From positions 19,312,837 to 19,372,836 of the forward strand of contig NC_087073.1 of NCBI RefSeq assembly GCF_026151205.1: a stretch of DNA of 60,000 nucleotides, given 5' to 3'. Positions 25,652-49,703 of this stretch are shown piece by piece. How positions within the stretch are numbered: the stretch's first letter is position 1; every line of letters starts with the position of its first letter. The notes beneath the pieces are model-generated. The model ran no database searches. It worked only from the letters and a program-made list of their open reading frames with translations, and was not told the DNA's origin. A program made the position numbers and the translations under genes. Source of the DNA: Bolinopsis microptera (lineage: Eukaryota; Ctenophora; Tentaculata; Lobata; Bolinopsidae).

Positions 25652-26013
25652 CTTCAGATTTGAAATGGTCGAAACATATTAAAAGTTGTATTAGTAAAGC
25701 AAACAGTATGATTGCATGGGTTACAAGGAATCTCATTATAAGAGAAATTAATGTTATGAGAAATGTTTATAAAACTATAATAAGACCCCACTTGGAGTAT
25801 TGTGCTCAGTTGTGGTCTCCACCTGCAGGTGGAGACCACAACTGACCACAACTGAGCACAATACTCCAAGTGGGGTCTTATTATAGTTTTATAAACATTT
25901 CTCATAACATTAATTTCTCTTATAATGAGATTCCTTGTAACCCATGCAATCATACTGTTTGCTTTACTAATACAACTTTTAATATGTTTCGACCATTTCA
26001 AATCTGAAGAAGT
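25652..26013. repeat. Inverted duplication of about 180 bp inside element A RT
   Basis: The segment 25652-25827 is an inverted copy of 25828-26013, centred on CCTGCAGG. Both arms encode the same RT peptide (SCISKANSMIAWVTRN...) on opposite strands. The right arm has an extra ACCACAACTG tandem. The LINE sequence outside continues across it, so the duplication arose in place. Confidence 0.9.
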
Positions 26014-26758
26014 TAAAACTCCAAGATCTTTCTCTGCTTCAATACATTCAAGTGTAACACCACTAAATACATATTCTTGAAGGGGATTTTCATTAAATGG
26101 AACATGCATTATTTTGCATTTGCTAGGATTAAACTTTAACAGCCACACATTTTGCCAGTTTTGCAAGCTTTCTAACATATTGAAAGTGCTTTCAGTGTCA
26201 TTGGCATCCATAATAACTTTAAGATCATCTGCAAACAGTTTTGATATACCATTAATACAATCAGGCAAGTCATTGATAAAAATGACAAACAATAAAGGAC
26301 CTAAAACAGACCCTTGTGGGACGCCTGATAAAACATCACGAAGGTAGGAATATGCTCCACCAACAAATGTCTTAAATCTTCTTCCAGATAAAAAGTCTTT
26401 CACAATATCTAAAGTGTTACCACTTATACCCAAATTTCTCATTTTTGTAAGTAGTCTATATATTTTAATACTTTCAACACTACTATATAACAAATAATTT
26501 GAGGACCCCCAGTGGGAACTAATGCCTCGGTAAATGTAACGACCATTACAGGTTGTATGTCAATGTAAATGGTTGTTGCACGATAAAGTTATCTTAAAGA
26601 CATCCTAAGGACTATCAGACATCGGTTTTTAAAGCAGTTTACTCCCATCTATCACCTAAAGATTATCAGACATCACTTATCGTTATCCTCCGGAGTGCTA
26701 CAAAGGTACTGTAATCATTAACTAAATTTCGAACAGTAGCATCTTTTTGTGATAAACT

Positions 26759-28411
26759 ATGTCTAGAATACCAGTTGGCTCAAGACATTACAATCTGAGA
26801 TATCGAGGGAATTCTGTTAAATTCCCCAGCAACGGCTCTTGTCCTACTGATAAATGTTCAAATTGTTTAACTCTATTAAGAGAGAATGATAGTCTTCGTC
26901 GGCAAATTTCTTTTCTCTATAAACAATTATCAGAAAGTGACAGTGCACTCAAAGTTCCCCTCAGCGATGGTTCACTTATCCCTGTATTGCCCCAGGTACC
27001 TGATCACTGTGAACATTCTATCAATGTTCCCCTCAGTAATAGGTCATCCTCGCATCTTGTTTCTGAGTTAACCCAAGAGCTATCCAAATTAGCAGAAGAC
27101 AGTGAACATTCAGCAGAAATTATCAATTTGGAAAATCCCAAAAACTCTGTAAATGGTGACAATGATGTGACCAACTCTATCAATCCATACCAAGATTTGA
27201 GTCGAGGAGTTTTTCAGTTTGTTGACACTGCCAAGTTAGATATAGAAACCCACTATACTCATAAGTTTAAGAATAGGGCAGTTGCATATTACGGGGACTT
27301 TCCCTACGCTTACAATGGAGGGTTTCATAACACAAGGCCAGTAGCAGACAATCCATACCTAAAGTCTATTCTAGAACGCTTACGCTCACAGTTCCCAAAA
27401 TTGAAATTCAATAGTGCTATGATTACCAAGTATAGAAATGGTCAGCAAGGAATTCCCTTTCACTCGGATGACGAGAGGTCAATTTCACCAGGCTCCATGA
27501 TCTCCACCATCTCTTTAAGGGCTACTAGAGTCCTAAGCTTCAGATCCAAACTTAGAGCTCATATTGCTGACCTCACCCTCTCCCATGGTGACATAATGAA
27601 TATGACCAGACAATCCCAGACCAGCTTTGAACACAGCCTCATCCAGGACAAGTCTGAAACCATGAGAATAAGCATTACTCTGCGCCTAATTGATGGCAGC
27701 GCAACCTTATCTACTCTGTCTGATGTTTCCAGTCAAGTTAAGAACACTGAACCCTCGGCCCCTAAGACTAGATCAATAGAACATTCTGGTAAATCTTTGT
27801 GTGTCTACATTAGCTCTAGTATGTTCTCCAAATTAGAGGGAGAAAAGCTATCGTCCAAACATCATGAGGCACATGTATTCAGCTACCCTGGTGCCACAGC
27901 CAATGCAATCAATGAACGGTTTCAATCAGATGTAAGAAAAGACACTCTTAATACCAATAATGCGAAAAGCATTGTACTTATGTGTGGTACAAATGACGTG
28001 GACTCTATCCTGAACAGCCCTCGCAACATGAGGACTAAACTTCTGTGCCCTGATAGTTTTTCTGGTGATGCTAGAGCTCTTGACTTTACAAACAATTGTA
28101 TTGAAAAACTTGTACTTTTCCTTCACAAGTGGGCACCTGGAGCTGATATTAAAATTGTTAACTTATTACCTCGGGAGAGTTTCTCCAGAAACAAGGTTAT
28201 AACTGATATCAATGAGTGTATATCAAATCTGCAAAGAAAATACACCTATGTAAAACTGCTCTCAACCGAGACAAATCGTTTCTTGTTTAGTGATAAGAAA
28301 GGCTTTAGAAAATCGTCATTTTTTAGTAGTTATGGAGAGGATAATGTCCATCTCAATGATTATGGCATAGTTAAATTAGCAAGGCACTTGAAGTATCATG
28401 CACACCATTAG
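26759..28411 (+). CDS. LINE ORF1 with AlkB 2OG-Fe(II) oxygenase and SGNH-hydrolase domains
   Basis: 550 aa. Residues 1-70: basic start (HYNLRYRG), a CxxC pair and a short coiled coil. Residues about 150-315 match the AlkB fold: KYRNGQQGIPFHSDDE supplies the iron-binding H235-x-D237, LSHGDIMNMTRQSQTSFEHSL supplies H292, and R303-x5-R309 (RISITLR) is the 2-oxoglutarate-binding signature. AlkB enzymes oxidatively demethylate alkylated bases in DNA or RNA. Residues about 340-550 are an SGNH/GDSL hydrolase-like domain with GTND (410-413) and D528-x-x-H531 (DNVHLN); the usual GDS nucleophile block reads ISSSM instead. Esterase domains are known in CR1-type ORF1 proteins; the added AlkB domain is unusual. 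Function in retrotransposition is inferred. Confidence 0.85.
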   Translation: MSRIPVGSRHYNLRYRGNSVKFPSNGSCPTDKCSNCLTLLRENDSLRRQISFLYKQLSESDSALKVPLSDGSLIPVLPQVPDHCEHSINVPLSNRSSSHLVSELTQELSKLAEDSEHSAEIINLENPKNSVNGDNDVTNSINPYQDLSRGVFQFVDTAKLDIETHYTHKFKNRAVAYYGDFPYAYNGGFHNTRPVADNPYLKSILERLRSQFPKLKFNSAMITKYRNGQQGIPFHSDDERSISPGSMISTISLRATRVLSFRSKLRAHIADLTLSHGDIMNMTRQSQTSFEHSLIQDKSETMRISITLRLIDGSATLSTLSDVSSQVKNTEPSAPKTRSIEHSGKSLCVYISSSMFSKLEGEKLSSKHHEAHVFSYPGATANAINERFQSDVRKDTLNTNNAKSIVLMCGTNDVDSILNSPRNMRTKLLCPDSFSGDARALDFTNNCIEKLVLFLHKWAPGADIKIVNLLPRESFSRNKVITDINECISNLQRKYTYVKLLSTETNRFLFSDKKGFRKSSFFSSYGEDNVHLNDYGIVKLARHLKYHAHH

Positions 28412-28566
28412 AATACTGCTGAATACTGACATAACACTCCTACCATCAGTTTTATTTTTACAGTACGACATCCAGACAAATACAACCTGCTTTTATTCTG
28501 TTTTTTAGTTTAAACACAACTTTACAACTTTTATTCATTCCATTGTGAATTAATAAGATTCACAAG

Positions 28567-30046
28567 ATGACAAATTTTAATAATGCAGCTGATAGGTTTC
28601 ACAACCTCTGCATTGGTCATTGTAACATTCAAGGAGGGCTTCTCAATTTAGCTAAAAGTAATGAACTTTCCCAACTTATTAGAGATCATAAATTAGACAT
28701 ACTTTCCCTAAATGAGATGAATCCTAATGATACTATTGACACAGACACCATAAATATTCCTTCCTCCTTCAACCTTATGCGATGCGACAGGCCAAACAGT
28801 TCTAGGGGTGGTTGTGGCTTAATGATAAACAAAAAACTAGCTTACACAGAATTAGTTATGGATAGTAAGCTTGATAACATTGAAGCATTATGGGTGAAGC
28901 TTAAGAATAGCAAGATCAATGTTTGCTGCTTCTATCGCTCTGGAAATTATTGCAGTGTTGATAACTTTATTGAATACATTCATTTTTGCATGAAAAAATT
29001 GAATGGGAAAAAGGTTATCTGGATTGGGGATATAAACATTGACCAGAATAATATCTCATCCACCCAGTACAAAAAATTAGATATGACCTTGAGATGTTAC
29101 AATCTAGTTCAAACCATTCAAGGGATAACTAGAGTTGCTAAACGTGGAGACAATGTTACCCAGACTACTATTGATGTAATATTCACTAACTGTTATGCAG
29201 ATTTTGTCCAATCTTCTGTTCTTGATGAACGTATTGGAGATCATCAAGCTATTATGTGTGAGATAGATTGTAAAGTACCTATAGCTCCTAAATTTGAGAA
29301 GGTTGAAATTAGAAATCATTGTAAACGTAATGTTAAACAATTCTTAGACTATCTAGATACCTGTTCTGATTACAGTCCACTATTGGAAAGTACAGATGTT
29401 GAAGCTATCACTGCTGGCCTTTGTCATCATATTGAACAGGCATATGCAACCTTCTTCCCTTGCAAGACCATAGAAAGGCATGAAAAGTTCATACATAAAC
29501 CTTCTACTGAACTTTTAAATGCCATTAATCATACACATTTTCTTCTAAAGAAATTCCGTAAAAAGAAGGATAAGAGAGACAATGGAAATTGCAATAAATG
29601 TGGTACATGTAGCAAATGTATAAAGTGTAATGAGGCCTGGGATTGCTACAAGATTCAGAGAAATATTAGAAATAAATTAGCTAAAACCTGCAAAAAGGCT
29701 AATGTAATCGATGATCTACAAGTTAAAAGTGCCAAGAATGATCTTAAAGGGATATGGAAAACTATCAAACTGGCATCAAATATGACCCCTGGTACAACTA
29801 ATTGTCAAACTATCAATGAGAATGATCCTGAGCTATTTAACTTTCATTTTGCAAATGTTGGATCAAGATTACAAAATCAGGCCCCCAATATTGAAAGAGT
29901 TAGTTTTACTGATTTTTTACCTCCTAGAACTTCTAATATCTCATTTGATAGATTCCAAGAAATAAATGAAACTGATATCCTAATGTATGTCGAAACGCTC
30001 AAGAATGACAAGGCCTCATATGACAATGTGCCTCTATTTTTACTTA
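28567..30046 (+). CDS. Element B ORF2, 5' part: endonuclease and start of RT
   Basis: Starts 155 bp after ORF1. The apurinic-type endonuclease has NIQGG (about residue 20), LNEM, GGCGLMI, WIGDINID, TTIDVIFTN and the final GDHQA (about 226). Residues about 341-360 form an unusual cysteine cluster (CNKCGTCSKCIKC). The linker ends in FHFANVGSRL and the first RT block, NDKASYDNVP. Element C enters after base 30046. The frame continues at 45466 for a total of 992 codons including the stop. ORF2 supplies the nicking and reverse-transcription activity for target-primed integration. Confidence 0.88.
30044..30046. repeat. Target-site duplication TTA, left of element C
   Basis: Matches TTA at 45463-45465. 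The duplication is short, but the perfect frame repair of ORF2 supports it. Confidence 0.8.
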
Positions 30047-30065
30047 TAGTAGGAGCTGTTACGGG

Positions 30066-30946
30066 GATTTTCTGCTCGATACACCAGAGTCATCAGACAT
30101 GTCTTAAAAGACGTATTTTTGGCCCCTGAATCGATTGGTGATAGTGGGAAGTGTTGAAAATGGGGTTAACCCGGTTTTATTTTGAAAAAACCGATTTTTG
30201 GCCCTAAAAATGGCCATTTTTTGAGGTTTTTTAGAAATTTCGACAGGTTAATTCAATGGAAAAGCTTAGATATTTTGGTTTCTTGTACATTTTTATTTGC
30301 CGCACTAGCTAATACCAATATAATAAGCACACACAAGAGTTAACCCGGTCAAAATTTTAAAAAACCTCCCAAAAAAACTGTTTTTTTGCGCGCTAAATTT
30401 TTTCGGCTCTTTATGCACCCACAATGAAATATTTTTGCCCACAAAGTGTTTTAATACTGTTCAATAATACTATTTGATAGTTTTTCAGCGTCAAAACAAG
30501 TTTTGAAAGCGGAAGAAAAAATTATATTTTTCGTGGAGCTGAGCACTTTGAAAATTTTTGAATAAAATCGAGCGCTACCGTAAAATTTTAGTAACCCTTC
30601 CCTGAAACTCATTTAAGTTTTTGTACCGTTAGTGTTTTGTCCTTTTCTGAAGCTCATGCCTTCTCTGGCTTAATTTCATTTAATATTGTTTAATACAGTA
30701 CAGTAAAGTGTTTTATAATAGTAGAGTGCCATTTCTAATACTTCAATGTTATATTGTTGAGATACCTTTACTTGGCTGATATCCTTCTGTTAATACAATT
30801 TCACAAATTTAGTATTGCATTGCTTATATGACTATTTGGATTTATAATTTATCGATTGTGGGTATGAATAAACTTTTGGTTCACAATCAACAATATAATG
30901 TCTACTGTGTGGTACCCTTACAAGATTAATTATAGATCTTTTGAAA
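30066..30946. other. Left subterminal region of element C
   Basis: AT-rich. Contains a self-complementary ACCGGTTTT/AAAAACCGAT-like stretch near 30160-30200. No coding frame of note. Confidence 0.5.
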
Positions 30947-31370
30947 GGAATGCCTGACTTGAACCCCCTCATCCATCACTCATTCAGTGTTGCCTGTTGG
31001 ATATGGAGGAAATCTACACCACTGATATTGTAAAGGCACTCTTCAGTACACATAAAATAGAGCACGGTGAATAATATAGATGAGTTACTGCTATCTTCTC
31101 AATGCAATTTTGAATACATGTCAGGAACACCTGACTTAAACCCCCTCATCCAAAACTCATTCAGTGTTGCCTGTTGGATATGGAGGAAATCTACACCACA
31201 AAGTGGAATATTGTAAAGGCACTCTTCAGTACACATAAAATAGAGCACGGTGAATAATATAGATTAGTTGCTGCTATCTTCTTAACATGATTTTGAATTT
31301 ATAAATAGTAGTAGAGTAAATGTCAGGAATGCCTGACTTAAACCCCCTCATCCATCACTAATTTCGAATA
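30947..31370. repeat. Short tandem array of about 177-202-bp units
   Basis: Units start near 30947, 31124 and 31326, each opening with GGAAYRCCTGACTTRAACCC. The second shares the GTTGGATATGGAGGAAATC and AAATAGAGCACGGTGAATAA blocks with the first; the third is cut short. It is unrelated to the 171-bp satellite. Confidence 0.75.
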
Positions 31371-31608
31371 AATGTATAGATGCTGCATTGAATTCATGAA
31401 GATATCATTCGTTTTGAGCAATCATTCCCTTAGCTCCCCCGTTTTTTGATTGTTTCAAAGAAGTAGTCAAATTACAATATGTATTGTTTAGTTACATCTA
31501 TTGCCAAGTTATTTAAGCCATTTCATCTCTAGTAGATTCAAATAATTTCTGTAATTCTGAATTATGTTGCTGAACAAACTTGACAATCACCATTAGAAAG
31601 AAGGTGAC

Positions 31609-31803
31609 ATGTTTATGGACCCAGAACTAGCTAAGACAGTTCTCTGTGTACATGCGGATCACTTCAAGAATCTTCTTGATGAAAGAAGCTTGTGTCGTTT
31701 GTTGAAAGACTTCAATCCGCTCACAGCCATGCAGATTAAGAAGAATTTAGATCGACATTATTTTGATAACAATGAAAACTCAAATGGTTTGATTTTTAGC
31801 TAA
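31609..31803 (+). CDS. Small hypothetical ORF in element C
   Basis: 64 codons from ATG, with a leucine- and charge-patterned helical segment (LDERSLCRLLKDFNPL). I do not recognise a family. It may be an exon remnant or chance frame. Confidence 0.2.
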   Translation: MFMDPELAKTVLCVHADHFKNLLDERSLCRLLKDFNPLTAMQIKKNLDRHYFDNNENSNGLIFS

Positions 31804-32087
31804 ATTACCATAATTATTATAATTAATTAAATACAGGCTGACAATGTTTCATTTCGAAAACTGTATCTGAATAAAGTAATTTTAACTGAATCTTAAGCTG
31901 TTCAAACAGCTTTTTTAGATGATGTTATCGATGCTGTATAAGTTGAAACCTTTTGATGATGAGAGGTACATGAACAAACCTACACTAAACAATACTACAT
32001 TCCAGCTTGGAACGAAATGAGTGGAGTTGAACGACGCCCTGTTTATCGAAACTACATCAATCAACTTTTCAACTATGCAGGTTATTA

Positions 32088-32480
32088 ATGAAATGAAATG
32101 AAATACTATTACTTTGTCGGAACTAAGTCCGATCTACGCCAGATAACCCCCTCCATATATCCCTGTCCCGCATCAGGGTTCACAGTTCCTCAATCCTCTT
32201 TTGAGTTTGTCCCAATTTCCTTCAGTAACATAGACAAGTAGCTTTGTCTTGGTCGGCCTTGCTGTGCTCTACCATGCATAGGTTTCCATAAGACTAAATC
32301 ACTGGCAAGTAGCTCAGGATGTCTGATGCAGTGTCCCGCCATTTTTAGTCTCCTGCTTCGTAACTTGTTTGACAGCCTTGGCTTGGTAGACTACCATACA
32401 AAGTTATATTGCTGACCTTGTCCTTCCATGAGATACCCAGCACCATGCGTAGCATCTTTGTGTATGTCCCGTCCAATACA
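32088..32480 (-). pseudogene. 3' end of a LINE with (CATTT)n tail, inside element C
   Basis: On the minus strand the decayed frame reads LDGTYTKMLRMVLGISWKD, then YGSLPSQ and other blocks with several stops. It ends in CATTT repeats (plus-strand 32088-32103). It is the same family as the fragment at 7576-8140, which shows the TRMLRMAL block. Confidence 0.65.
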
Positions 32481-32599
32481 AATGAAATAAATTATTTTTA
32501 TCCCGCTTATAACAACAATCAAAATTTAAAACTTATGGACGTATATCACTCATTATTATGTATCACTCTCTAACATCTTCTCCTCACTACAAATATTAC

Positions 32600-33810
32600 C
32601 ACTTCTGATATAATAATGTTTTTTTTGTGTCTTCTTTGGCTCAGGCATGGCTCCAGCTCAAAATCTTTGGGTGGGTGCAGCTTGGCGCACAGCGGGGGGG
32701 ATTTTACTCTCCTAAACGTATTTTAATATCTCCAAAACAGTCTCAATTGATTACAGAAGTCAATTGACCCTTAGTTTATACAAAATTGGACAATTTTTGT
32801 GTGAACATTTTCAAATCGTTTGGGTGGGTGCAACATCCTTTGGGTGGGTGCGCACCCACCCGAAACTACACGGTGGAGCCATGCCTGCTTTGGCTATCTG
32901 TTTCATTTCCAAGACCAACCGCTGATGGATAGCTCGATCTTCAGGTGATCGATCTGGAGAGATGAAAACAGTCTTATGATCTTCACACAGTCTCAGCTTT
33001 TTGGCATTTACTAATATCTGATGAACGGTAAGTTAGAATTACCTAGCGAAACTTTGACTGGTCTCGTCTTGTTGGCTGATTTTCTCCCAACCCAGATAGC
33101 TTCAAAATGCGGTTTTTCTTCAATCTGCTGAAAAATCACGGTAACTTTATTGCACAGTTCCTCTTCATCAGTCTCCTTCAAACCAAAGATGAGCACATTC
33201 CTACTGCGATCCTCTTCCGATACAGCATTCTGTACAACCTTTTTTAAACTCTCTTCTGCAAGCACAGGTGTATTTTTAGTCACAGCTTGACTGTATGACT
33301 TCATCTCAGCTTGGACAGTGTCTTGAACGGCGGTCTTGACGGTGGAGTGCCGAGTGCACAGATTCCAACTGCTTTGATTTAGTTTCCAGAAGTTCAGCCT
33401 GCAGCTTGATAACAGTACTTTGCGATCGGATAAGATCGCTCTTCAACTCCTCCATATCTTTCTTGTTATCCAGAAACGTACTTACATGATTATCGGTAGT
33501 CTGATACGCAGAATACAAATTACAAATGTTTTACTGAAACTGACTTCACTGGCTTTTTGAACGTTTCAACTGAAAACTCAGATTTATTGTCACTAACAGT
33601 TCGTAGCTTCCGCGAGTTCAGTGATCCAACCGTTATAGACCTCATACTCTTCAGTAATGTAGGTAGAATAAACTGACAATCTTTGAAGAGTATCCATTTC
33701 CTCCATCGTTTACTTGTACTTGTATAAAGTAAAAACACAGTACCAGCAAAATGGCAGTTGTAATGTAGCGATAAAATAGAGATAAGAGCTAGATTATCAA
33801 CACATAACAA
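32600..33810 (-). pseudogene. LINE ORF1 pseudogene in element C
   Basis: Decayed homologue of the protein at 14553-15449. It keeps EEDRSRNVLIFGLKETDEEE, KTRPVKVSL, VHQILVNAKKLR and [13 protein letters not shown]. Its coiled-coil part (about 33306-33518) is in another frame, and the C-terminal part is split by the hAT MITE. Confidence 0.75.
32642..32887. mobile_element. hAT MITE, 246 bp, perfect 8-bp target duplication
   Basis: The termini are 14-bp perfect inverted repeats (CAGGCATGGCTCCA). They are flanked by CTTTGGCT at 32634-32641 and 32888-32895. Internal GGGTGGGTGCR motifs occur near both ends. It interrupts the LINE ORF1 pseudogene. An 8-bp duplication with a CA...TG terminus is diagnostic of hAT elements. 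Confidence 0.93.
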
Positions 33811-33990
33811 AAACTGTAAAACTGTATCATAATATTATTATGCTTTTAACATCATCTGTTGTGATATACATGACAAAGGGTTGGAAACGTACAGTAACCT
33901 TACTACATGTATATTGCAATTACACAATATTATGTGAACGACTCCTAACCCCTTATAGGCTCTATAAGTATTGAATAATGATAACTGCAG

Positions 33991-35360
33991 GGTTTCAAAA
34001 TGTACAAGGCATCATATCAAAGATTGCATATGCCCGAAAGAAGGACAAATCCAATCTCTGGATGTATGGAAAGCTGTCAACCTTCCAGAAAAGGACTGTT
34101 CAAAGGAACACTTAAATCCCTCCGACAGGTAATTATTATAAATAATAATTTAGTCTTCATTATGTCAAATCACCTACTATAATGAAGAACTAAAATTGTT
34201 GTATTAACCAAGTTTAATGTGACTCAATTTTGGTGGAACTTTAGAATTTGGACGTTATATCTATCATGTTCATCTTAAATCTCATATTATATACTCAATA
34301 TTCAATTAAACAGACAAAGATAACCTCTCTAGGCCCTCTGGTGGTGACGTATAAGTGCTTTCTCAGTACTTTCTCTCGCTTTTGGACAAATCCAGTGAGT
34401 TAACTTTTTATCAGTGGTCGACCGGGGGCAGGATTCTGACCGGGGCCGGGGAGCCCCAATATGGCCGGGGCTGACCACTGAGAATTGGCCGGGGCCGGGG
34501 TTTACCCCCGGCGAATTGCCAATTTTTGGCCGGGGCCGGGAAGGGCGGGGGGTTGTGATTTTGGCCGGGGCACCGGGCGACCACTGCTTTTTATGTCACG
34601 ATTTTTAAAACTTTATTCATAAGTTTATGAAACATCAAAACTTTGCATGCTCTGCATTATGTAAAGTCAATCATGCACTAGAGCACAGTTCACTGTAATA
34701 TGCTAGAGTGATTTATACTCAATAGCTATGTGAAAAGTGGCTCAAGGAGGGGAGACCGACGTAAACAATTTTGAATTGGTAGAAGTTAAGTTTAGGCTTT
34801 AATGAAAAACTATTTAAAGAATATCATTCTTTTACCACAGACATAAGACTTTGCCGTAGGGTATACAAAAATGTGACCATTCATCAATTTTTAGAGTGCT
34901 GTATCTGTACCCGAATAGAAATAAAGGATTTTAATGAAACAGTTTTCTTCCGCTCTGAAAGTGAACGAATGACAAAACAGTCTAGAAAATTCCTCGCCCT
35001 GCTGCAGAAGATCAATCCTGGGTTGTGCTCACCAAATCAAACCTCTTTTTTGTGTATTCAGTGTCTTAACTATGTAAAAGACAACTATAACAGGGTGAGT
35101 GGTTTCCTCCTGTTTTACTAACATTTAAAAACATTATTATTCAAAGGTAAATAGACAGCGAGTAGTAATTTTCAATCCATTTCTATCGGATTTGCAAACT
35201 TTTAAAATGATATAACACTTGTACGATCTCAAACTTATGTGATATGATACTGTTGATATAAACGTGGTAAGTAATAAAGTATTTGCAGGTGTACAGTGCT
35301 GTTTCTGAAATTGACGAATCCTCTTGTGATGAAGATTGAAGAAGCTATTGCCATCCAAGT
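33991..35360 (+). pseudogene. Exon fragments of a cysteine-rich gene carried in element C
   Basis: Exon-like piece 33991-34128 with AG/GT borders encodes CTRHHIKDCICPKEG and VWKAVNLPEKDCSKEHL, with spaced Cys/His residues. A second piece, 34841-35092 with AG/GT borders, encodes FLECCICTRIEIKD and FLCIQCLNYV, two CxxC-type pairs. A third starts at 35290 after TTGCAG and soon hits a stop. Phases between pieces do not join cleanly. It looks like a broken spliced gene captured by, or inserted into, the transposon. Zinc binding is inferred from the cysteine pattern; no family is named. Confidence 0.4.
34412..34586. mobile_element. GC-rich hAT MITE, 175 bp, perfect 8-bp target duplication
   Basis: Begins CAGTGGTCGACCGGGGG and ends with its near reverse complement. 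CTTTTTAT flanks it at 34404-34411 and 34587-34594. The body is built from GGCCGGGGCCGGGG-like motifs, far more GC-rich than its surroundings. Confidence 0.92.
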
Positions 35361-35697
35361 GGAAAAAGTCCCGCCTTTGTCACCCTCCTCGAATAGAACT
35401 TAGAAAATGTGGAGACTTTCTTCATTTAGTTCCCAATCAAGTGGACCAGATGTTGATTTGTTTGAAATGGACTGAGACTTGTGTTTCATATGCCAGGTTG
35501 AACAGGTTTGTGTGACACTTTTGCTCGCAAATATAATTATTATGTAACATATTATCTCGATTTAATTTTAAGAGTATCAGAGGTTATTCTTCTTTAACAA
35601 TACGAATTTCCCTAGATAAGACGTTAGAAACGAAAAAGGATAGTCTGATTCAAGGAAAAGATAAAAGTTTCTTCGTCGATTTCGCAACATACTATCT

Positions 35698-35928
35698 GTG
35701 GACATCTACAGAAATCGTCAGGATCTGTGCAACATCGATGTTAATCCTGATTCGCACATGACCAAGTGCCCTGTTCTTAACCCTGAGAGTCTCGGAAAAT
35801 ATCTCTATAGCAAGCTAGGTAGATATCACAAAACATGTCGTTTGAGGTACAGCAACTCGAGGGTGAAACAATTGAAGGGTAAATTATCTGAAGCTGTAAG
35901 TTTAAAACCTGTCTCTAAGGCAGGTTTT
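35698..35928 (+). pseudogene. Fragment with YHKTCRLRYSN motif
   Basis: 77-codon frame ending in KLGRYHKTCRLRYSNSRVKQLKG. The '(W/Y)HKxCR...' pattern is common in uncharacterised invertebrate proteins. Sequence downstream to about 36300 shows decayed in-frame pieces with stops. It may belong to the same captured gene as 33991-35360. Family function unknown. Confidence 0.35.
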
Positions 35929-36578
35929 TAAATGGAAAGACACGTGTCCACGCACGACAACACCAATGCTGCATTAATGAGTGCAGGTATTGACGCTGTA
36001 CGGACCTTTTAACTGGAGCAGGAGAATGTTTTACCAGAACTGTACCTCGTGTCTGACCCGAAGCTTAAGTACAATGACTATGTGACGTCTAATTTATCTG
36101 AGAACGCTGCAAACTCCAGCAATGTTTAATCTGATCACATCAGTTTTCAGAAAGACAATGTCGGTAAGACGAGTTTGTTTCGACATCTAATCTTGCCGCA
36201 ACAATAGATGCGGATAGAGATGATAACACTTTAACAAAGACAGCACTCATAAAGGAGATTAGAAAAGAAATCTTTCAATGTAGAAACGAATTCTATCAGC
36301 TATGTTCGATTTACTGATCGGTGGCATCTGTAGAAATATAGTGTTTATGTGGATTAATCTGTTAAAGCAGGGCTATTGTATCATTTTAACATTAACTTTG
36401 CATAGTGATGATACTTTTATTGTGTCTCTTGTGATTATCTATTTCTAAGTTTCTACAGTGTTACGGTACCACGAGGTTTCTGGCACAGTGACGCGCTTTT
36501 GAGCAAATATCGTGCTAGATAAGTCACGCGCCGCGAGGGCTACTTGAGAGCGTTTTGCCGGATTTTTGCCGGATTTTT

Positions 36579-39500
36579 GCCGGATTCTTGAATAACGGAA
36601 AATTGTATTGATAAATGTTCTTTAAACTCTTCAAATAGTTAGAGCACTATAATACGGTCAATTTCAGGGAGTATAAAAAAATTTCTTCGTCTGTGAGTGG
36701 AGATACAAGGTCAAACACAAGAAAATATCTTCATTTGGCCAGAATTTTTGCCGGATTCTTGAATAACGGAAAATTGTATTGATAAATGTTCTTTAAACTC
36801 TTCAAATAGTTAGAGCACTATAATACGGTCAATTTCAGGGAGTATAAAAAAATTTCTTCGTCTGTGAGTGGAGATACAAGGTCAAACACAAGAAAATATC
36901 TTCATTTGGCCAGAATTTTTGCCGGATTCTTGAATAACGGAAAATTGTATTGATAAATGTTCTTTAAACTCTTCAAATAGTTAGAGCACTATAATACGGT
37001 CAATTTCAGGGAGTATAAAAAAATTTCTTCGTCTGTGAGTGGAGATACAAGGTCAAACACAAGAAAATATCTTCATTTGGCCAGAATTTTTGCCGGATTC
37101 TTGAATAACGGAAAATTGTATTGATAAATGTTCTTTAAACTCTTCAAATAGTTAGAGCACTATAATACGGTCAATTTCAGGGAGTATAAAAAAATTTCTT
37201 CGTCTGTGAGTGGAGATACAAGGTCAAACACAAGAAAATATCTTCATTTGGCCAGAATTTTTGCCGGATTCTTGAATAACGGAAAATTGTATTGATAAAT
37301 GTTCTTTAAACTCTTCAAATAGTTAGAGCACTATAATACGGTCAATTTCAGGGAGTATAAAAAAATTTCTTCGTCTGTGAGTGGAGATACAAGGTCAAAC
37401 ACAAGAAAATATCTTCATTTGGCCAGAATTTTTGCCGGATTCTTGAATAACGGAAAATTGTATTGATAAATGTTCTTTAAACTCTTCAAATAGTTAGAGC
37501 ACTATAATACGGTCAATTTCAGGGAGTATAAAAAAATTTCTTCGTCTGTGAGTGGAGATACAAGGTCAAACACAAGATAATATCTTCATTTGGCCAGAAT
37601 TTTTGCCGGATTCTTGAATAACGGAAAATTGTATTGATAAATGTCCTTTAAACTCTTCAAATAGTTAGAGCACTATAATACGGTCAATTTCAGGGAGTAT
37701 AAAAAAATTTCTTCGTCTGTGAGTGGAGATACAAGGTCAAACACAAGAAAATATCTTCATTTGGCCAGAATTTTTGCCGGATTCTTGAAGAACGGAAAAT
37801 TGTATTGATAAATGTTCTTTAAACTCTTCAAATAGTTAGAACATTATAATACAGTCAATTTCAGGGAGTATAAAAAAATTTCTTCGTCTGTGAGTGGAGA
37901 TACAAGGTCAAACACAAGAAAATATCTTCATTTGGCCAGAATTTTTGCCGGATTCTTGAATAACGGAAAATTGTATTGATAAATGTCCTTTAAACTCTTC
38001 AAATAGTTAGAGCACTATAATACGGTCAATTTCAGGGAGTATAAAAAAATTTCTTCGTCTGTGAGTGGAGATACAAGGTCAAACACAAGAAAATATCTTC
38101 ATTTGGCCAGAATTTTTGCCGGATTCTTGAATAACGGAAAATTGTATTGATAAATGTCCTTTAAACTCTTCAAATAGTTAGAGCACTATAATACAGTCAA
38201 TTTCAGGGAGTATAAAAAAATTTCTTCGTCTGTGAGTGGAGATACAAGGTCAAACACAAGAAAATATCTTCATTTGGCCAGAATTTTTGCCGGATTCTTG
38301 AATAACGGAAAATTGTATTGATAAATGTTCTTTAAACTCTTCAAATAGTTAGAGCACTATAATACGGTCAATTTCAGGGAGTATAAAAAATTTCTTCGTC
38401 TGTGAGTGGAGATACAAGGTCAAACACAAGAAAATATCTTCATTTGGCCAGAATTTTTGCCGGATTCTTGAATAACGGAAAATTGTATTGATAAATGTTC
38501 TTTAAACTCTTCAAATAGTTAGAGCACTATAATACGGTCAATTTCAGGGAGTATAAAAAAATTTCTTCGTCTGTGAGTGGAGATACAAGGTCAAACACAA
38601 GAAAATATCTTCATTTGGCCAGAATTTTTGCCGGATTCTTGAATAACGGAAAATTGTATTGATAAATGTTCTTTAAACTCTTCAAATAGTTAGAGCACTA
38701 TAATACGGTCAATTTCAGGGAGTATAAAAAAATTTCTTCGTCTGTGAGTGGAGATACAAGGTCAAACACAAGAAAATATCTTCATTTGGCCAGAATTTTT
38801 GCCGGATTCTTGAATAACGGAAAATTGTATTGATAAATGTTCTTTAAACTCTTCAAATAGTTAGAGCACTATAATACGGTCAATTTCAGGGAGTATAAAA
38901 AAATTTCTTCGTCTGTGAGTGGAGATACAAGGTCAAACACAAGAAAATATCTTCATTTGGCCAGAATTTTTGCCGGATTCTTGAATAACGGAAAATTGTA
39001 TTGATAAATGTTCTTTAAACTCTTCAAATAGTTAGAGCACTATAATACGGTCAATTTCAGGGAGTATAAAAAAATTTCTTCGTCTGTGAGTGGAGATACA
39101 AGGTCAAACACAAGAAAATATCTTCATTTGGCCAGAATTTTTGCCGGATTCTTGAATAACGGAAAATTGTATTGATAAATGTTCTTTAAACTCTTCAAAT
39201 AGTTAGAGCACTATAATACGGTCAATTTCAGGGAGTATAAAAAAATTTCTTCGTCTGTGAGTGGAGATACAAGGTCAAACACAAGAAAATATCTTCATTT
39301 GGCCAGAATTTTTGCCGGATTCTTGAATAACGGAAAATTGTATTGATAAATGTTCTTTAAACTCTTCAAATAGTTAGAGCACTATAATACGGTCAATTTC
39401 AGGGAGTATAAAAAAATTTCTTCGTCTGTGAGTGGAGATACAAGGTCAAACACAAGAAAATATCTTCATTTGGCCAGAATTTTTGCCGGATTCTTGAATA

Positions 39501-42500
39501 ACGGAAAATTGTATTGATAAATGTTCTTTAAACTCTTCAAATAGTTAGAGCACTATAATACGGTCAATTTCAGGGAGTATAAAAAAATTTCTTCGTCTGT
39601 GAGTGGAGATACAAGGTCAAACACAAGAAAATATCTTCATTTGGCCAGAATTTTTGCCGGATTCTTGAATAACGGAAAATTGTATTGATAAATGTTCTTT
39701 AAACTCTTCAAATAGTTAGAGCACTATAATACGGTCAATTTCAGGGAGTATAAAAAAATTTCTTCGTCTGTGAGTGGAGATACAAGGTCAAACACAAGAA
39801 AATATCTTCATTTGGCCAGAATTTTTGCCGGATTCTTGAATAACGGAAAATTGTATTGATAAATGTTCTTTAAACTCTTCAAATAGTTAGAGCACTATAA
39901 TACGGTCAATTTCAGGGAGTATAAAAAAATTTCTTCGTCTGTGAGTGGAGATACAAGGTCAAACACAAGAAAATATCTTCATTTGGCCAGAATTTTTGCC
40001 GGATTCTTGAATAACGGAAAATTGTATTGATAAATGTTCTTTAAACTCTTCAAATAGTTAGAGCACTATAATACGGTCAATTTCAGGGAGTATAAAAAAA
40101 TTTCTTCGTCTGTGAGTGGAGATACAAGGTCAAACACAAGAAAATATCTTCATTTGGCCAGAATTTTTGCCGGATTCTTGAATAACGGAAAATTGTATTG
40201 ATAAATGTTCTTTAAACTCTTCAAATAGTTAGAGCACTATAATACGGTCAATTTCAGGGAGTATAAAAAAATTTCTTCGTCTGTGAGTGGAGATACAAGG
40301 TCAAACACAAGAAAATATCTTCATTTGGCCAGAATTTTTGCCGGATTCTTGAATAACGGAAAATTGTATTGATAAATGTTCTTTAAACTCTTCAAATAGT
40401 TAGAGCACTATAATACGGTCAATTTCAGGGAGTATAAAAAAATTTCTTCGTCTGTGAGTGGAGATACAAGGTCAAACACAAGAAAATATCTTCATTTGGC
40501 CAGAATTTTTGCCGGATTCTTGAATAACGGAAAATTGTATTGATAAATGTTCTTTAAACTCTTCAAATAGTTAGAGCACTATAATACGGTCAATTTCAGG
40601 GAGTATAAAAAAATTTCTTCGTCTGTGAGTGGAGATACAAGGTCAAACACAAGAAAATATCTTCATTTGGCCAGAATTTTTGCCGGATTCTTGAATAACG
40701 GAAAATTGTATTGATAAATGTCTTTAAACTCTTCAAATAGTTAGAGCACTATAATACGGTCAATTTCAGGGAGTATAAAAAAATTTCTTCGTCTGTGAGT
40801 GGAGATACAAGGTCAAACACAAGAAAATATCTTCATTTGGCCAGAATTTTTGCCGGATTCTTGAATAACGGAAAATTGTATTGATAAATGTTCTTTAAAC
40901 TCTTCAAATAGTTAGAGCACTATAATACGGTCAATTTCAGGGAGTATAAAAAAATTTCTTCGTCTGTGAGTGGAGATACAAGGTCAAACACAAGAAAATA
41001 TCTTCATTTGGCCAGAATTTTTGCCGGATTCTTGAATAACGGAAAATTGTATTGATAAATGTTCTTTAAACTCTTCAAATAGTTAGAGCACTATAATACG
41101 GTCAATTTCAGGGAGTATAAAAAAATTTCTTCGTCTGTGAGTGGAGATACAAGGTCAAACACAAGAAAATATCTTCATTTGGCCAGAATTTTTGCCGGAT
41201 TCTTGAATAACGGAAAATTGTATTGATAAATGTTCTTTAAACTCTTCAAATAGTTAGAGCACTATAATACGGTCAATTTCAGGGAGTATAAAAAAATTTC
41301 TTCGTCTGTGAGTGGAGATACAAGGTCAAACACAAGAAAATATCTTCATTTGGCCAGAATTTTTGCCGGATTCTTGAATAACGGAAAATTGTATTGATAA
41401 ATGTTCTTTAAACTCTTCAAATAGTTAGAGCACTATAATACGGTCAATTTCAGGGAGTATAAAAAAATTTCTTCGTCTGTGAGTGGAGATACAAGGTCAA
41501 ACACAAGAAAATATCTTCATTTGGCCAGAATTTTTGCCGGATTCTTGAATAACGGAAAATTGTATTGATAAATGTTCTTTAAACTCTTCAAATAGTTAGA
41601 GCACTATAATACGGTCAATTTCAGGGAGTATAAAAAAATTTCTTCGTCTGTGAGTGGAGATACAAGGTCAAACACAAGAAAATATCTTCATTTGGCCAGA
41701 ATTTTTGCCGGATTCTTGAATAACGGAAAATTGTATTGATAAATGTTCTTTAAACTCTTCAAATAGTTAGAGCACTATAATACGGTCAATTTCAGGGAGT
41801 ATAAAAAAATTTCTTCGTCTGTGAGTGGAGATACAAGGTCAAACACAAGAAAATATCTTCATTTGGCCAGAATTTTTGCCGGATTCTTGAATAACGGAAA
41901 ATTGTATTGATAAATGTTCTTTAAACTCTTCAAATAGTTAGAGCACTATAATACGGTCAATTTCAGGGAGTATAAAAAAATTTCTTCGTCTGTGAGTGGA
42001 GATACAAGGTCAAACACAAGAAAATATCTTCATTTGGCCAGAATTTTTGCCGGATTCTTGAATAACGGAAAATTGTATTGATAAATGTTCTTTAAACTCT
42101 TCAAATAGTTAGAGCACTATAATACGGTCAATTTCAGGGAGTATAAAAAAATTTCTTCGTCTGTGAGTGGAGATACAAGGTCAAACACAAGAAAATATCT
42201 TCATTTGGCCAGAATTTTTGCCGGATTCTTGAATAACGGAAAATTGTATTGATAAATGTTCTTTAAACTCTTCAAATAGTTAGAGCACTATAATACGGTC
42301 AATTTCAGGGAGTATAAAAAAATTTCTTCGTCTGTGAGTGGAGATACAAGGTCAAACACAAGAAAATATCTTCATTTGGCCAGAATTTTTGCCGGATTCT
42401 TGAATAACGGAAAATTGTATTGATAAATGTTCTTTAAACTCTTCAAATAGTTAGAGCACTATAATACGGTCAATTTCAGGGAGTATAAAAAAATTTCTTC

Positions 42501-42903
42501 GTCTGTGAGTGGAGATACAAGGTCAAACACAAGAAAATATCTTCATTTGGCCAGAATTTTTGCCGGATTCTTGAATAACGGAAAATTGTATTGATAAATG
42601 TTCTTTAAACTCTTCAAATAGTTAGAGCACTATAATACGGTCAATTTCAGGGAGTATAAAAAAATTTCTTCGTCTGTGAGTGGAGATACAAGGTCAAACA
42701 CAAGAAAATATCTTCATTTGGCCAGAATTTTTGCCGGATTCTTGAATAACGGAAAATTGTATTGATAAATGTTCTTTAAACTCTTCAAATAGTTAGAGCA
42801 CTATAATACGGTCAATTTCAGGGAGTATAAAAAAATTTCTTCGTCTGTGAGTGGAGATACAAGGTCAAACACAAGAAAATATCTTCATTTGGCCAGAATT
42901 TTT
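36579..42903. repeat. 171-bp satellite array, 37 tandem copies
   Basis: The unit begins GCCGGATTCTTGAATAACGG and ends GGCCAGAATTTTT. Starts recur every 171 bp (36579, 36750, 36921 ... 42733), with two units one base short (near 38388 and 40721). Most units are identical. Variants cluster between about 37570 and 38210 (ATGTCCTTT for ATGTTCTTT; AACATTATAATACAG for AGCACTATAATACGG). Two partial TTTTTGCCGGA repeats precede the array. Near-identity points to very recent amplification. Confidence 0.97.
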
Positions 42904-43712
42904 TAGACTTAAAAATTTAAATTAATTTAAAACTAAATTTTCAAGCCACAAATTTTATTGCTGAAGCAGGAACCTACTGTGTAAATTTAATAAGTCTAAC
43001 ATGGTAATAGAGAGATGATATAAAGTAGGACTTTCTGAACCGATCGTAGCTCGGTCGTGGGGATGAACATACTATGTAACATAATCTTCCAGGGTCTAAT
43101 CAAGATGGAAGTTTGGGATCATCTAATAACTCAGCAGGATCCATCCGCAGAGGACTTGGTATCGTACACCCCACTATACTGTCGAAGTCGGAAAAACCGG
43201 AACCCACGTAGACCTACAATGATAATTTTCTGTGATCAGTAACTTCACAGATTACTATTTGGATTAAACTAGATTTAAAAGAAGTTAGACGATTGCTCAT
43301 TTAACCAATTGGCAAAATAAACGTTTTACAACTTCACATCAACATGAACATGAAAATGTTTCCAAGATTCAAAAAACATTGAATTCACTTTGAATAAAGA
43401 CAAAAACCGTTCGGACTTACTTACTTCGGTGCAAATTGTGACAGTAAGTTCGAACACTGCGAATCTGTAAGCAGACCGAGTCTTTGTTAAGAGTTTGACA
43501 GTGAATTATTTGTCCTGCTAAACAGATTCTGGCAGTGAGCTGGTTAAAGGGAGGTCACGTGTCAGAAACGCTGGCCAATTACAGACTATTACGTGGCAGT
43601 GCAGAGTGTCACACGACATATGCATGTGCCAGTGTAGATGCAGATGGAGGAGCACGTGACTATAACGTGGTCTCTCATGCACATAGTGCTTCAAGTAAAT
43701 TAGCTCCAGCTT
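42904..43712. other. Spacer between the direct and inverted satellite arrays
   Basis: 809 bp of ordinary unique-looking sequence, the potential loop of a giant foldback. No convincing gene. Confidence 0.6.
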
Positions 43713-44846
43713 TTTTATACTCCCTGAAATTGACCGTATTATAGTGCTCTAACTATCTGAAGAGTTTAAAGAAAATTTATCAATACAATTTTCCGTTATT
43801 CAAGAATCCGGCAAAAATTCTGGCCAAATGAAGATATTTTCTTGTGTTTGACCTTGTATCTCCACTCACAGACGAAGAAATTTTTTTATACTCCCTGAAA
43901 TTGACCGTATTATAGTGTTCTAACTATTTGAAGAGTTTAAAGAACATTTATCAATACAATTTTCCGTTATTTAAGAATCCGGCAAAAATTCTGGCCAAAT
44001 GAAGATATTTTCTTGTGTTTGACCTTGTATCTCCACTCACAGACGAAGAAATTTTTTTATACTCCCTGAAATTGACCGTATTATAGTGCTCTAACTATTT
44101 GAAGAGTTTAAAGAACATTTATCAATACAATTTTCCGTTATTCAAGAATCCGGCAAAAATTCTGGCCAAATGAAGATATTTTCTTGTGTTTGACCTTGTA
44201 TCTCCACTCACAGACGAAGAAATTTTTTTATACTCCCTGAAATTGACCGTATTATAGTGCTCTAACTATTTGAAGAGTTTAAAGAACATTTATCAATACA
44301 ATTTTCCGTTATTCAAGAATCCGGCAAAAATTCTGGCCAAATGAAGATATTTTCTTGTGTTTGACCTTGTATCTCCACTCACAGACGAAGAAATTTTGTT
44401 ATACTCCCTGAAATTGACCGTATTATAGTGCTCTAACTATTTGAAGAGTTTAAAGGACATTTATCAATACAATTTTCCGTTATTCAAGAATCCGGCAAAA
44501 ATTCTGGCCAAATGAAGATATTTTCTTGTGTTTGACCTTGTATCTCCACTCACAGACGAAGAAATTTTTTTATACTCCCTGAAATTGACCGTATTATAGT
44601 GCTCTAACTATTTGAAGAGTTTAAAGAACATTTATCAATACAATTTTCCGTTATTCAAGAATCCGGCAAAAATTCTGGCCAAATGAAGATATTTTCTTGT
44701 GTTTGACCTTGTATCTCCACTCACAGACGAAGAAATTTTTTTATACTCCCTGAAATTGACTGTATTATAATGTTCTAACTATTTGAAGAGTTTAAAGAAC
44801 ATTTATCAATACAATTTTCCGTTATTCAAGAATCCGGCAAAAAAAT
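43713..44846. repeat. Inverted 171-bp satellite array, about 6.6 copies
   Basis: Same 171-bp unit in reverse complement. It carries the same rare variants as the direct array: AAAGGACAT (near 44453) and CTGTATTATAATGTTCTAAC (44759-44778). Shared variants mean the two arrays derive from one another rather than independently. Inverted CCGGCAAAAATCCGGC near 45036 mirrors the left edge of the direct array. Confidence 0.95.
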
Positions 44847-45462
44847 CAGCGCCAAATAACAAAACTTATCCTTGTGTTTCAGGTATTGCCTAGTGATCGC
44901 TATGTCTATATTACTTCACAGTGGTATATGTGGAAGTTGGTATTATCCTGTTAATATTTGCCGAGTTTTGTGGACAGTTGGCCATGATTTCAAGTGATAT
45001 TTTGGAAAAGTTTGGGAAATTTGCAGCGCGATTATCCGGCAAAAATCCGGCAATTCTGGTCTCAAGTACTTCTGCGCGCCGCAACCGAATCAGATTTAAG
45101 TGCACTTTTTTCATTGTAAACACTACATACGACGCACAACACGTTCTACGAGGTCGAAATTTTCGAGGTCTCTAACACCGGAATGGAGCAATATTTAGAC
45201 GATCTGACACTTTCTGGGGCTTAAGCAACCTAAGAGAAATTAGGGGAACAACTCAGAAAAAATTTTTAGTCGATATTCCGGTGTCTGTAGATGTTCGAAG
45301 TTTTGGCAGTAAAGTGCTCACAACACAGCTTCTGAAGGCTCTAGAAGGTTCCCGATACCGTCAGAGTGTTCAGTACACTCCATTCTATCATATAAGAACC
45401 CTAAAAGAAGTCCCAGGGCTCGAGCAGAGAAGTGCAATATTTGCCCGTAAGAGCCTCTACTA
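44847..45462. other. Right subterminal region of element C
   Basis: Includes a segment near 45025-45090 (CCGGCAAAAATCCGGCA ... CTCAAGTACTTCTGCGCGCC) that is an imperfect inverted match to 36523-36580 (CGCGCC ... TACTTGAGAG ... TTGCCGGATTTTTGCCGG). The remainder has no recognised gene. Confidence 0.6.
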
Positions 45463-45465
45463 TTA

Positions 45466-46961
45466 AGCAAGCTGTACCACACATAGTTGAGCCACTGACC
45501 CACATTGTCAATCTGAGCCTTAATACAGGTGTTGTACCAACCCTTTGTAAAAAAGCTAGAGTAACTCCCATCCATAAGGCAGGAATGAAAGATGATCCTA
45601 ATAATTACAGGCCAATATCCATCCTTCCACTTGTAGGAAAACTTATAGAATACTTTGTCGGCAAGCAACTCACTGATTACATGGAAGAGAACAAACTTTT
45701 CATCCGGCATCAATATGGCTTTCGGAAAAATCACTCCACAACTTATCTGATGTACGATCTGATGGACGAAATATATATGAGTAAATCTAAGTCTTATAAA
45801 CCAGGAATCATCTTTCTTGATCTTAAGAAGGCCTTTGACACAGTGAATCATGAAATATTGCTTCAAAAATTGGCATATTATGGAATTGGTGGCATTGCTT
45901 TAACCTGGTTTAAGAACTTCTTATCTTGTAGATATCAATGCACTAGGATCAATGGCAATCTAAGCTCATTTTTAGAAGTTCTGAGTGGTGTACCACAAGG
46001 AAGCATCATTGGGCCTATATTATTTAGTATCTTCATAAATGACATCATTTATGCCTGTAACCTATCTAAGCCCTTTCTATTTGCAGATGATGGTGCACTA
46101 TTCTTTGATCAAACCTGCAGAAGCACATTTATAAACATGAAAATAGAACTTATGACAATCTTTAAATGGCTCAGTGTTAATAAATTATCACTCAATGAAA
46201 AGAAGACTGAATTCCTATTGTTTGATTCTGTTGACCAACATGATGAAATAACCATTGATTGTAATGAGGTAACTTTCACAATCAAGGAGTGCAAAGAGAC
46301 AAAATATCTTGGCCTCATTCTAGATAGTAAATTAAACTTCAAAAGCCATGTAGATTATATTATTAGGAAGGTCATGAAGAGAATTGGTGCCATGTATAGA
46401 AGTAAAGCACTGCTACCCATTAAATATAGGAAAATGTTTGCCAATGCACTCATGTTGCCACAATTCGATTATTTAGACACGATCTATTGTAGAGCTGGCA
46501 AGACAAAACTTGCTGAACTTGACACTCTGTACAAAAAGGTAGCCAAAATAGCTCTCAACGTTCCAAAAACAGAGAGCAGCCTTAATGTTTATAGAGACAT
46601 GAAATGGTTACCACTCCATCTTAGACGACAACTCCATCTGTCAAATTATATGTTTAGAATCATCCATGACAATTGTCCTACAAACTTTATGAACAAATTT
46701 AGTTACATATCAGGAGGTAGTAGGAGCGGCGAAAGCTGCAACCTTTATGTCAATAGATCAACATCACATAAAAACTTTCAATACTTGGGGGCAAAATGTT
46801 GGAATAATGTTCCAACAGATCTACGAAATCTGCCCGATGTTAAAAGCTTTAGTGATTCGTATAAGAAACAGCTACTATCATCTATAACAACAGACCCTAA
46901 TTATACCGTCGACAATTCATATGACAAATTTTACACTGCAATCATAGTCGCCGATAACTAA
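45466..46961 (+). CDS. Element B ORF2, 3' part: reverse transcriptase
   Basis: Continues the RT from KQAVPHIVEPLTHI: ARVTPIHKAG, NNYRPISILP, QYGFRKNHSTTY, FLDLKKAFDTVNH, SGVPQGSIIGP, the catalytic FADD (about residue 700 of the full ORF2), LSLNEKKTEFLLF and KYLGLIL. The thumb and C-terminal region end at the TAA at 46961. No stop or frameshift interrupts it. The 45432-45465 bases in front belong to the right end of element C plus the duplicated TTA. Confidence 0.9.
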
Positions 46962-47865
46962 GTAACTTCTAATTCTTTTAAATCTGAGGCATATATAATT
47001 GATGTATCGAAAAGATATTCCCTTTTTTACCACCTTACCATTCTGATTGATTTTGCACATGACTGACATGTTTTAACTGGAGAAGGGGTTCCCACAGTGG
47101 TAGTTTTATAAACCACTTTTAATTTATTGACCTATTATACTTAGTGGTAGTTTTATAGACCACATTTAATTTATTAACTTATCATACTTAGTATTTTTTT
47201 TGGTGACTGTATCACCCAGTTTTAACATTTGATAATTGTACAGTTTATTGACGACACATTGACTGAATGTTATTTTATATTCTAATTTATATTCTAGATA
47301 TTTTATTTATTTTACAACAGACGACAACTTCCTGTTTTTTCTTCTATATTAGTTACTCATATCTCTTGTACAGACTTTTTACAAGGACATTGACAAATGA
47401 TACTCACATTAGGCATTCATTATTGCATCTAAATTATTTCACTTGCATTAGGCTTAGAAATTTATTCTCTGGTCAACAGATTTCAAATGTTTAATTAATT
47501 TGTAGTATGACAGTAAGGTATATAAGAAGTTATTTAATTTTGCTTGGGCTATTATATTGACTAGGTATTGAGGTTTAATGATGATATGGAATTTGAATTC
47601 TATATAAATTTACACTATGTGGTTGGGGCATTTTGCATAGTAAATATGGTTACTACTCATATATATCATATTATTTGATTGGTATTCGATTTCTGATTAT
47701 TTCTCTAGGAATATGATTATTATATCTCAATTTGGCTTTAGGTAGGGTGCCCCGCTAAAAGAACTGGATTCTTCCAGGAAGCATCCCGTGCACAGAGCTT
47801 GGTCTACATATATATTAAATTATTAACCATTCATTCTGTATGTGCACGAAAATTTATTTCAATCA
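46962..47865 (+). other. 3' UTR of element B
   Basis: AT-rich. Two 47-bp tandem units start at 47096 and 47143 (AGTGGTAGTTTTATA). It ends just before the AT at 47866-47867, where element A resumes. Confidence 0.7.
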
Positions 47866-49700: not shown

Positions 49701-49703
49701 ATT

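Follow-up and report, generated by a model that had tools for sequence, protein, structure and literature searches.

Long interspersed nuclear elements (LINEs) of the CR1 and L2 groups carry an esterase-type (Type IV) first open reading frame, ORF1 (PMC4120745; for ZfL2-1, PMC3905857). In the part of PMC4120745 drawn on here, the ORF1 types listed are esterase, PHD, RRM and CCHC, the esterase type is reported from vertebrate groups only, and Type IV proteins are described as having an esterase domain, to which a zinc finger/leucine zipper or a coiled coil is often added at the N-terminus. AlkB-family dioxygenases are described for other replicating elements: according to the section of PMC9289625 used here, Ty3/Gypsy long terminal repeat (LTR) retrotransposons of Phalaenopsis orchids encode an ALKBH5-type N6-methyladenine (m6A) demethylase, and plant RNA viruses of the Alpha- and Beta-flexiviridae and Closteroviridae, cited there, have an AlkB as well. 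In bdelloid rotifers, GDSL esterase and DEDDy exonuclease ORFs are common to different retroelement classes (PMC5408684, in the part relevant here). The element described in this work, AlkB-LINE, lies in a 60,000-nt stretch of the genome of the ctenophore Bolinopsis microptera (NC_087073.1, 19,312,837 to 19,372,836; hereafter the window). It is a young non-LTR retrotransposon, whose ORF1 protein combines an SGNH hydrolase with an ALKBH2/3-type dioxygenase and, ahead of both, a helix that is a putative coiled coil.

The 550-aa frame at 26759..28411 (plus strand, as are all parts of this element) is almost certainly a LINE ORF1 with conserved AlkB and SGNH domains. A helix predicted by the AlphaFold2 model at residues 34-62 (26858..26944; putative coiled coil) is followed by the AlkB domain, an ALKBH2/3-type 2OG-Fe(II) dioxygenase at residues 141-311 (27179..27691), with H235, D237 and H292 as ligands of iron and R303 and R309 as ligands of 2-oxoglutarate (2OG). 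The SGNH hydrolase domain occupies residues 346-550 (27794..28408; S354, G410, N412, D528, H531). After a spacer of 155 nt (28412..28566) begins ORF2, the 5' part of which (28567..30046) encodes an AP-type endonuclease (EN) and the start of the reverse transcriptase (RT; Pfam PF03372, PF14529). A preliminary description of this locus, made from the sequence, had proposed a 550-codon ORF1 with catalytic residues in AlkB and SGNH spacing, located 155 bp upstream of an EN-RT ORF2, and this anatomy is confirmed. The AlkB domain it had claimed gives a significant match in Pfam and profile searches, the catalytic spacing holds in an alignment of 150 homologues, and the predicted fold is that of AlkB: the double-stranded beta-helix was found in the AlphaFold2 model by structural alignment, with 24-29% identity to human ALKBH2 and ALKBH3. 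A chance AlkB motif is ruled out by the profile match, the AlphaFold2 fold and the structural alignment. The SGNH domain likewise has its fold and all of its catalytic residues (Ser, Gly, Asn and Asp-x-x-His). With an esterase domain and the N-terminal helix 34-62 (putative coiled coil), the protein has the features of a Type IV (esterase) ORF1 and fits the CR1/L2 lineage, the agreement being one of architecture only.

An ORF1 protein search of the 264.65-Mb assembly, in which 79 of 801 first-look candidates were scored and the counts are therefore lower bounds, found at least 82 matches dispersed in the genome. They include subfamily A, the type present in the window, with near-full rows at least 95% identical, and subfamily B, with 16 near-full-length rows at 64-66% identity. 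Thirty of the 82 matches were examined as loci, one of them (L001) being the window itself. ORF1 is open over at least 540 codons in 22 of the 30, and the exact ORF2 start motif is present in 28. ORF2 similarity was found beside ORF1 in every one of the 30, the window included (over only 64 residues in L013 and at 40% identity in L029), as the preliminary description had required of other copies. Where both ends could be measured, the ORF1-ORF2 spacing was 155 nt in 20 loci out of 21 and 156 nt in the other. Intact copies are about 6.0 kb long and encode an ORF1 of 550 aa and an ORF2 of 991 aa; in the full copy L031, Pfam places EN at residues 19-166 (Exo_endo_phos, 3.6e-7) and RVT_1 at residues 531-778 (6.3e-36). 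Between two full subfamily A copies, identity is 99.4% over 5987 nt, which suggests recent activity. One subfamily B copy, L033, lies inside a repeat array, with AACACCTGTGTGT-like units on either side of it.

Homologues are also present in other data sets. Four of the ORF1 homologues are labelled with a species (P0059, P0105, P0260, P0261), in each case Mnemiopsis leidyi, and no example from outside the ctenophores emerged. Among the 120 listed ORF2 homologues the sole organism name is a Tenacibaculum metagenome-assembled genome (P0187), which is probably contamination. Five pairs of ORF1 and ORF2 homologues agree, by eye, in the size of their largest contig (834619, 203281, 7050, 6436 and 6406), which suggests the same ORF1-ORF2 adjacency in those data. 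An AlkB domain within the same protein as ORF2 was found in none of the best 120 of 987 ORF2 homologues, as expected, because ORF1 and ORF2 are separate ORFs.

Conservation was assessed in the same 150-homologue alignment (116 plus 34 new), where each sequence represents one 90% cluster, several of them mutually close, and gapped rows are not counted. The AlkB ligands and motif residues are nearly invariant (H235, D237 and E239 each 141/141, H292 145/146, R303 and R309 each 145/145), and so are those of the SGNH domain (S354 146/146, G410 146/148, N412 147/148, D528 and H531 each 139/142). A regular expression for the catalytic motif matches 32 of 34 AlkB rows; the misses are L043, which has all the residues by eye and a longer H-to-R loop, and the fragment P0268. 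Among the 20 copies with a 550-aa ORF1, pN/pS for the whole protein is 0.38; it is lower in AlkB (0.18) and SGNH (0.29) and higher in residues 1-140 (0.99), all pairs being summed and therefore non-independent. In one A-B pair dN/dS is 0.087 in AlkB (dS 1.15) and 0.131 in ORF2 (dS 0.068), and dS in SGNH is saturated. Judged from these substitution patterns, the AlkB domain has been under purifying selection, and the N-terminus is drifting while both enzyme domains are retained. An arginine at position 254 is unique to the window copy among the same 20.

To define the sub-type of the domain, a profile built from 68 sequences was searched against PDB chains. ALKBH3 ranked first (5.5e-25), followed by ALKBH2 (1e-22), E. 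coli AlkB (2.7e-6) and ALKBH5 (0.003). By sequence profile, the ORF1 AlkB is ALKBH3/ALKBH2-like and not ALKBH5-like. ALKBH2 and ALKBH3 repair N1-methyladenine (m1A) and N3-methylcytosine (m3C), and ALKBH5 removes m6A.

AlkB domains of this kind extend well beyond the two subfamilies. A genome search with Pfam PF13532, in which 150 of 587 candidates were scored, gave at least 151 matches, every listed row being above the cut-off. Besides the full copies L031-L034, we examined 22 further stretches (L035-L056), picked by eye for varied frame lengths and therefore non-random; 15 of them are LINE-type, four are Helitron-type and three (L044, L045, L046) contain ALKBH2/3-like frames, taken as host genes. 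By BLAST, the LINE-type ORF1s fall into the groups L036/L041/L049 (closest to A and B), L037/L040/L052/L054, L038/L043, L042/L053 (32%), L039/L051 and L050/L055 (37%). An endonuclease is present downstream in 13 of the 15. A profile made from eight ORF2s matches ten of these, namely L036, L038, L039, L041, L042 and L043, which are members of the profile, and L049, L050, L051 and L053, which are not; L037 was recognised via Pfam, L040 is 96.6% identical to L037 in this region, and L052 has the same frame by eye. No endonuclease was found in L054, which is truncated, or in L055 within its 4 kb. An SGNH profile match follows AlkB in 11 of the 15; in the L037 group AlkB comes first, and the C-terminal SGNH-like block there was identified solely through inspection by eye. 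L038, L042 and L043 have a PHD-like finger ahead of AlkB (Pfam, below the curated cut-offs), as does L053 by eye; the finger region of L038 also matches the BPTF PHD finger (E 2.4e-4). The phenomenon is thus wider than the preliminary description had stated, covering several LINE groups and Helitrons.

How AlkB may have come to be present in different LINEs is suggested by a comparison of closely related copies. Of 2973 ORF2 positions, 60 differ between L031 (A) and L033 (B), 21 falling within the first 127 nt, and synonymous divergence between their ORF1s is very high (dS 1.9). Starting 17 nt upstream of the ORF2 frame, the DNA of L036 and L041 is 97.9% identical, against 55% identity of the ORF1 protein; L037 and L040 are 96.6% identical in EN (178 aa) and 78.6% in ORF1 (746 aa). 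In each of the three close pairs compared, divergence is far greater in ORF1 than in ORF2. The change is abrupt in L031/L033 and L036/L041, which suggests that the 5' end together with ORF1 was replaced there by recombination or template switching. ORF1 replacement of this kind is a probable way for AlkB to have passed from one LINE to another.

The Helitron-type stretches carry the same domain in a different setting, a polyprotein in which SGNH mostly stands ahead of AlkB. A single 2722-aa frame in L047 includes SGNH (4.9e-5, below the cut-off), AlkB (2.4e-20), DUF6570, Helitron_like_N (4.2e-22) and PIF1 (5.1e-21). L035 (C10:16871001-16881000) has the same domain set minus the helicase end, which falls outside the stretch. 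L048 has AlkB and Helitron_like_N and is 38% identical to the SGNH region of L035, with no SGNH match of its own. Helitron_like_N was found in all three, and PIF1 in L047 only, the other two stretches ending earlier. The 1012-aa frame of L056 has SGNH and AlkB and no Rep within the part examined; it was classed as Helitron-type through its similarity to L035 (77% identity over 447 aa). L035 and L048 share 65% identity in the AlkB region and 49% in a Rep-containing region.

A maximum-likelihood tree was built from 29 AlkB domains, 26 from mobile elements (several of them database proteins without readable genomic context) and three from host rows. P0268, P0116, P0117, P0260 and L040 were left out as fragment, long-branch or near-duplicate rows; in an earlier quick tree that included four of them (P0268 being too short), two long branches joined. 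A branch with support of 94/80 (not starred) separates the 26 mobile-element domains from the three host ones, and most of the deep inner forks are open. The Helitron AlkBs may lie either within or beside the LINE AlkBs: forcing the latter into one clade cost 4.1 log-likelihood units (AU p 0.218). On this tree we favour, as the simplest reading, a single capture of AlkB by mobile elements that would have been followed by its spread. We speculate, with less than even confidence, that an ALKBH2/3-like enzyme coupled to an SGNH hydrolase was taken up by mobile elements of this lineage, perhaps once, was passed between LINE groups by exchange of entire ORF1 cassettes, moved between LINEs and Helitrons in one direction or the other, and is now a common and strongly selected tool of self-repair or counter-methylation.

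In the window, the AlkB-LINE is in two parts. The 5' part (26463..30046: 5' UTR, ORF1, spacer and ORF2 up to the RT start) is 99.3% identical to the full-length copy L031 over 3589 nt, and the 3' part (45463..47867: the rest of ORF2 to about 46961, in a frame at 45432-46961, then the 3' UTR) is 99.5-99.96% identical to the full copies L031 and L032. The window ORF2 breaks off within RT, and comparison with full copies explains the break by an insertion of 15.4 kb (30047..45462, no strand assigned) that is foreign to the LINE and missing from L031-L034. It has a TTA duplication and imperfect inverted ends (TAGTAG...TTACGGG) and looks like a DNA transposon; inside it, a 171-bp unit forms a tandem array (36573-42903, 37 copies, 99%) and recurs in inverted orientation as a block at 43711-44843. 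The AlkB-LINE in its turn interrupts the RT frame of an older, minus-strand LINE (25088-26462 and 47866-50907; frames 50907-47866 and 26493-25654), and joining the flanks restores an open RT frame. No clear target-site duplication was seen around the window copy, and inspection of L031-L034 by eye revealed none either. The ORF1 pieces of the older LINE include a zinc-finger-like piece and gave no AlkB or SGNH match. At its 5' end, 42 nt (50866-50907) are identical, on the reverse strand, to the 5' end of the AlkB-LINE. Other repeats in the window are a 696-aa RT frame of another retroelement (22478-24568, minus strand; RVT_1 5.7e-27, DUF6451), a further LINE remnant with a 314-aa frame of endonuclease-RT type (18717-19661, minus strand; Exo_endo_phos_2 1.2e-7) and an inverted repeat of 1422 bp (3763-5184 / 5464-6885) with arms 99.6% identical and a further internal repeat of about 430 bp.

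That a retrotransposon has acquired an AlkB-type dioxygenase, as initially proposed, is supported by the copies and the domain tests; its use in repair or unmasking of nucleic acid we infer from the sequence. The ORF1 protein would multimerise on the element RNA, and its AlkB domain would strip Watson-Crick-face methyls (m1A, m3C) off the RNA template or single-stranded cDNA. Since such adducts stop reverse transcriptase, their removal would let target-primed reverse transcription finish. The SGNH domain may have the role considered for the esterase of other LINE ORF1s, namely lipid or membrane contact of the ribonucleoprotein (RNP). Helitrons have a single-stranded DNA intermediate, and the related AlkB found in them therefore fits a general job of keeping a single-stranded replication intermediate copyable. 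We give template or intermediate repair an even chance of being the job of the domain. Several points weigh against this reading and the history proposed above: the window copy is not intact (split ORF2, R254), not every LINE here needs AlkB, since the window holds at least one with an AlkB-free ORF1, ALKBH2/3 likeness does not fix the substrate, and Helitrons may have captured their AlkB separately.

Alternatively, AlkB could erase regulatory m6A from the element transcript and so permit escape from host RNA surveillance. This was proposed for the orchid Ty3/Gypsy elements, the AlkB of which demethylates m6A in vitro and which provide the precedent; however, in the relevant part of the same report, the orchid domain is nested among ALKBH5 homologues (PMC9289625). 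The ORF1 domain matches ALKBH5 with E 0.003 only, so that an ALKBH5-like m6A eraser by descent is unsupported, and because the domain is ALKBH3/2-like we would prefer template repair and regard m6A erasure as doubtful. An equally doubtful possibility is action on DNA, either at the insertion site or on element DNA, where removal of 3-methylcytosine left by cytosine DNA methyltransferases, or of N6-methyladenine, would help the element to integrate or to escape silencing. For the ctenophore Mnemiopsis leidyi, a CG methylation level of 6.8% has been reported (PMC12221973, in the part used here). ALKBH2 is a dsDNA repair enzyme, and the ALKBH2 chains in our structural comparison are DNA complexes; Helitrons carry AlkB too, and some of the relatives have PHD fingers, which are chromatin readers in other proteins. 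Against this, LINE ORF1 proteins generally coat RNA, and no sign of action on DNA was seen here.

It is considerably less probable that the AlkB fold is a non-catalytic module which only binds nucleic acid. Esterase-type ORF1 is said, in the part of PMC3905857 consulted, to lack structural RNA-binding domains, a gap which a binding fold would fill, but the iron and 2OG ligands are retained almost without exception in the alignment. An artefact, i.e., a host AlkB gene or an assembly join by chance beside a LINE, has nothing found in its favour and is hardly credible given the dispersed copies with the same order and spacing, the two subfamilies, the relatives in other data sets and the interruption of the older LINE's RT frame by the unit. 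A host gene beside a LINE is ruled out by these copies together with the three separate ALKBH2/3-like frames (L044, L045, L046).

AlkB has so far been known from cellular repair and RNA-mark erasure, from certain RNA viruses of plants and from a single reported lineage of plant LTR retrotransposons. The LINE ORF1 fusion described here occurs in numerous intact copies, shows purifying selection and has relatives in further LINEs as well as a parallel in Helitrons; such an element would show that an animal transposon can encode a base-repair enzyme of its own. It opens to test whether methylated or alkylated bases limit transposon reverse transcription or rolling-circle copying in vivo and whether they serve as a host defence. 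If the speculation on uptake and spread given above is true, alkylation or methylation of bases in transposon nucleic acid would be a main front of host-transposon conflict in this lineage. Joined naturally to an RNP protein, a demethylase of this kind may also serve for reverse transcription of modified RNA. No report of AlkB in any LINE or Helitron was found in the literature searched, most subscription papers and preprints being outside its scope, which does not by itself prove novelty.

The ORF1 AlkB has in common with human ALKBH2 and ALKBH3 the fold, the iron and 2OG ligands and the HxDxE and RxSxT(L/F)R-like motifs; unlike them, it is part of an ORF1 protein and is known from sequence and model. 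With the CR1/L2 Type IV elements the AlkB-LINE shares an SGNH/esterase ORF1 upstream of an EN-RT ORF2 (PMC4120745, PMC3905857). Type IV ORF1s there have an N-terminal coiled coil or zinc finger/leucine zipper, with PHD fingers in some groups, and comparable features (a putative coiled coil, PHD-like fingers) are predicted in the LINEs found here; the portions of these two papers used here mention no AlkB or other dioxygenase for such ORF1s, whereas the AlkB-LINE has one. Plant RNA viruses are, like the AlkB-LINE, replicating RNA elements with an AlkB of their own, for which genome repair is postulated in the section of PMC9289625 used; their AlkB is found in a viral replicase, unlike that of a LINE ORF1, and the likeness drawn here is one of description. 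The Phalaenopsis Ty3/Gypsy element is also a retroelement with an AlkB-family dioxygenase and intact ligands, but it is a plant LTR element with an ALKBH5-type AlkB as a separate ORF (PMC9289625, same section), while in the AlkB-LINE the domain belongs to a LINE ORF1, is of ALKBH2/3 type and is coupled to SGNH. As in the bdelloid rotifer retroelements, accessory enzyme domains are common to element classes of one animal group; AlkB is not mentioned in the part of that paper relied on (PMC5408684), and the sharing described here spans LINEs and Helitrons.
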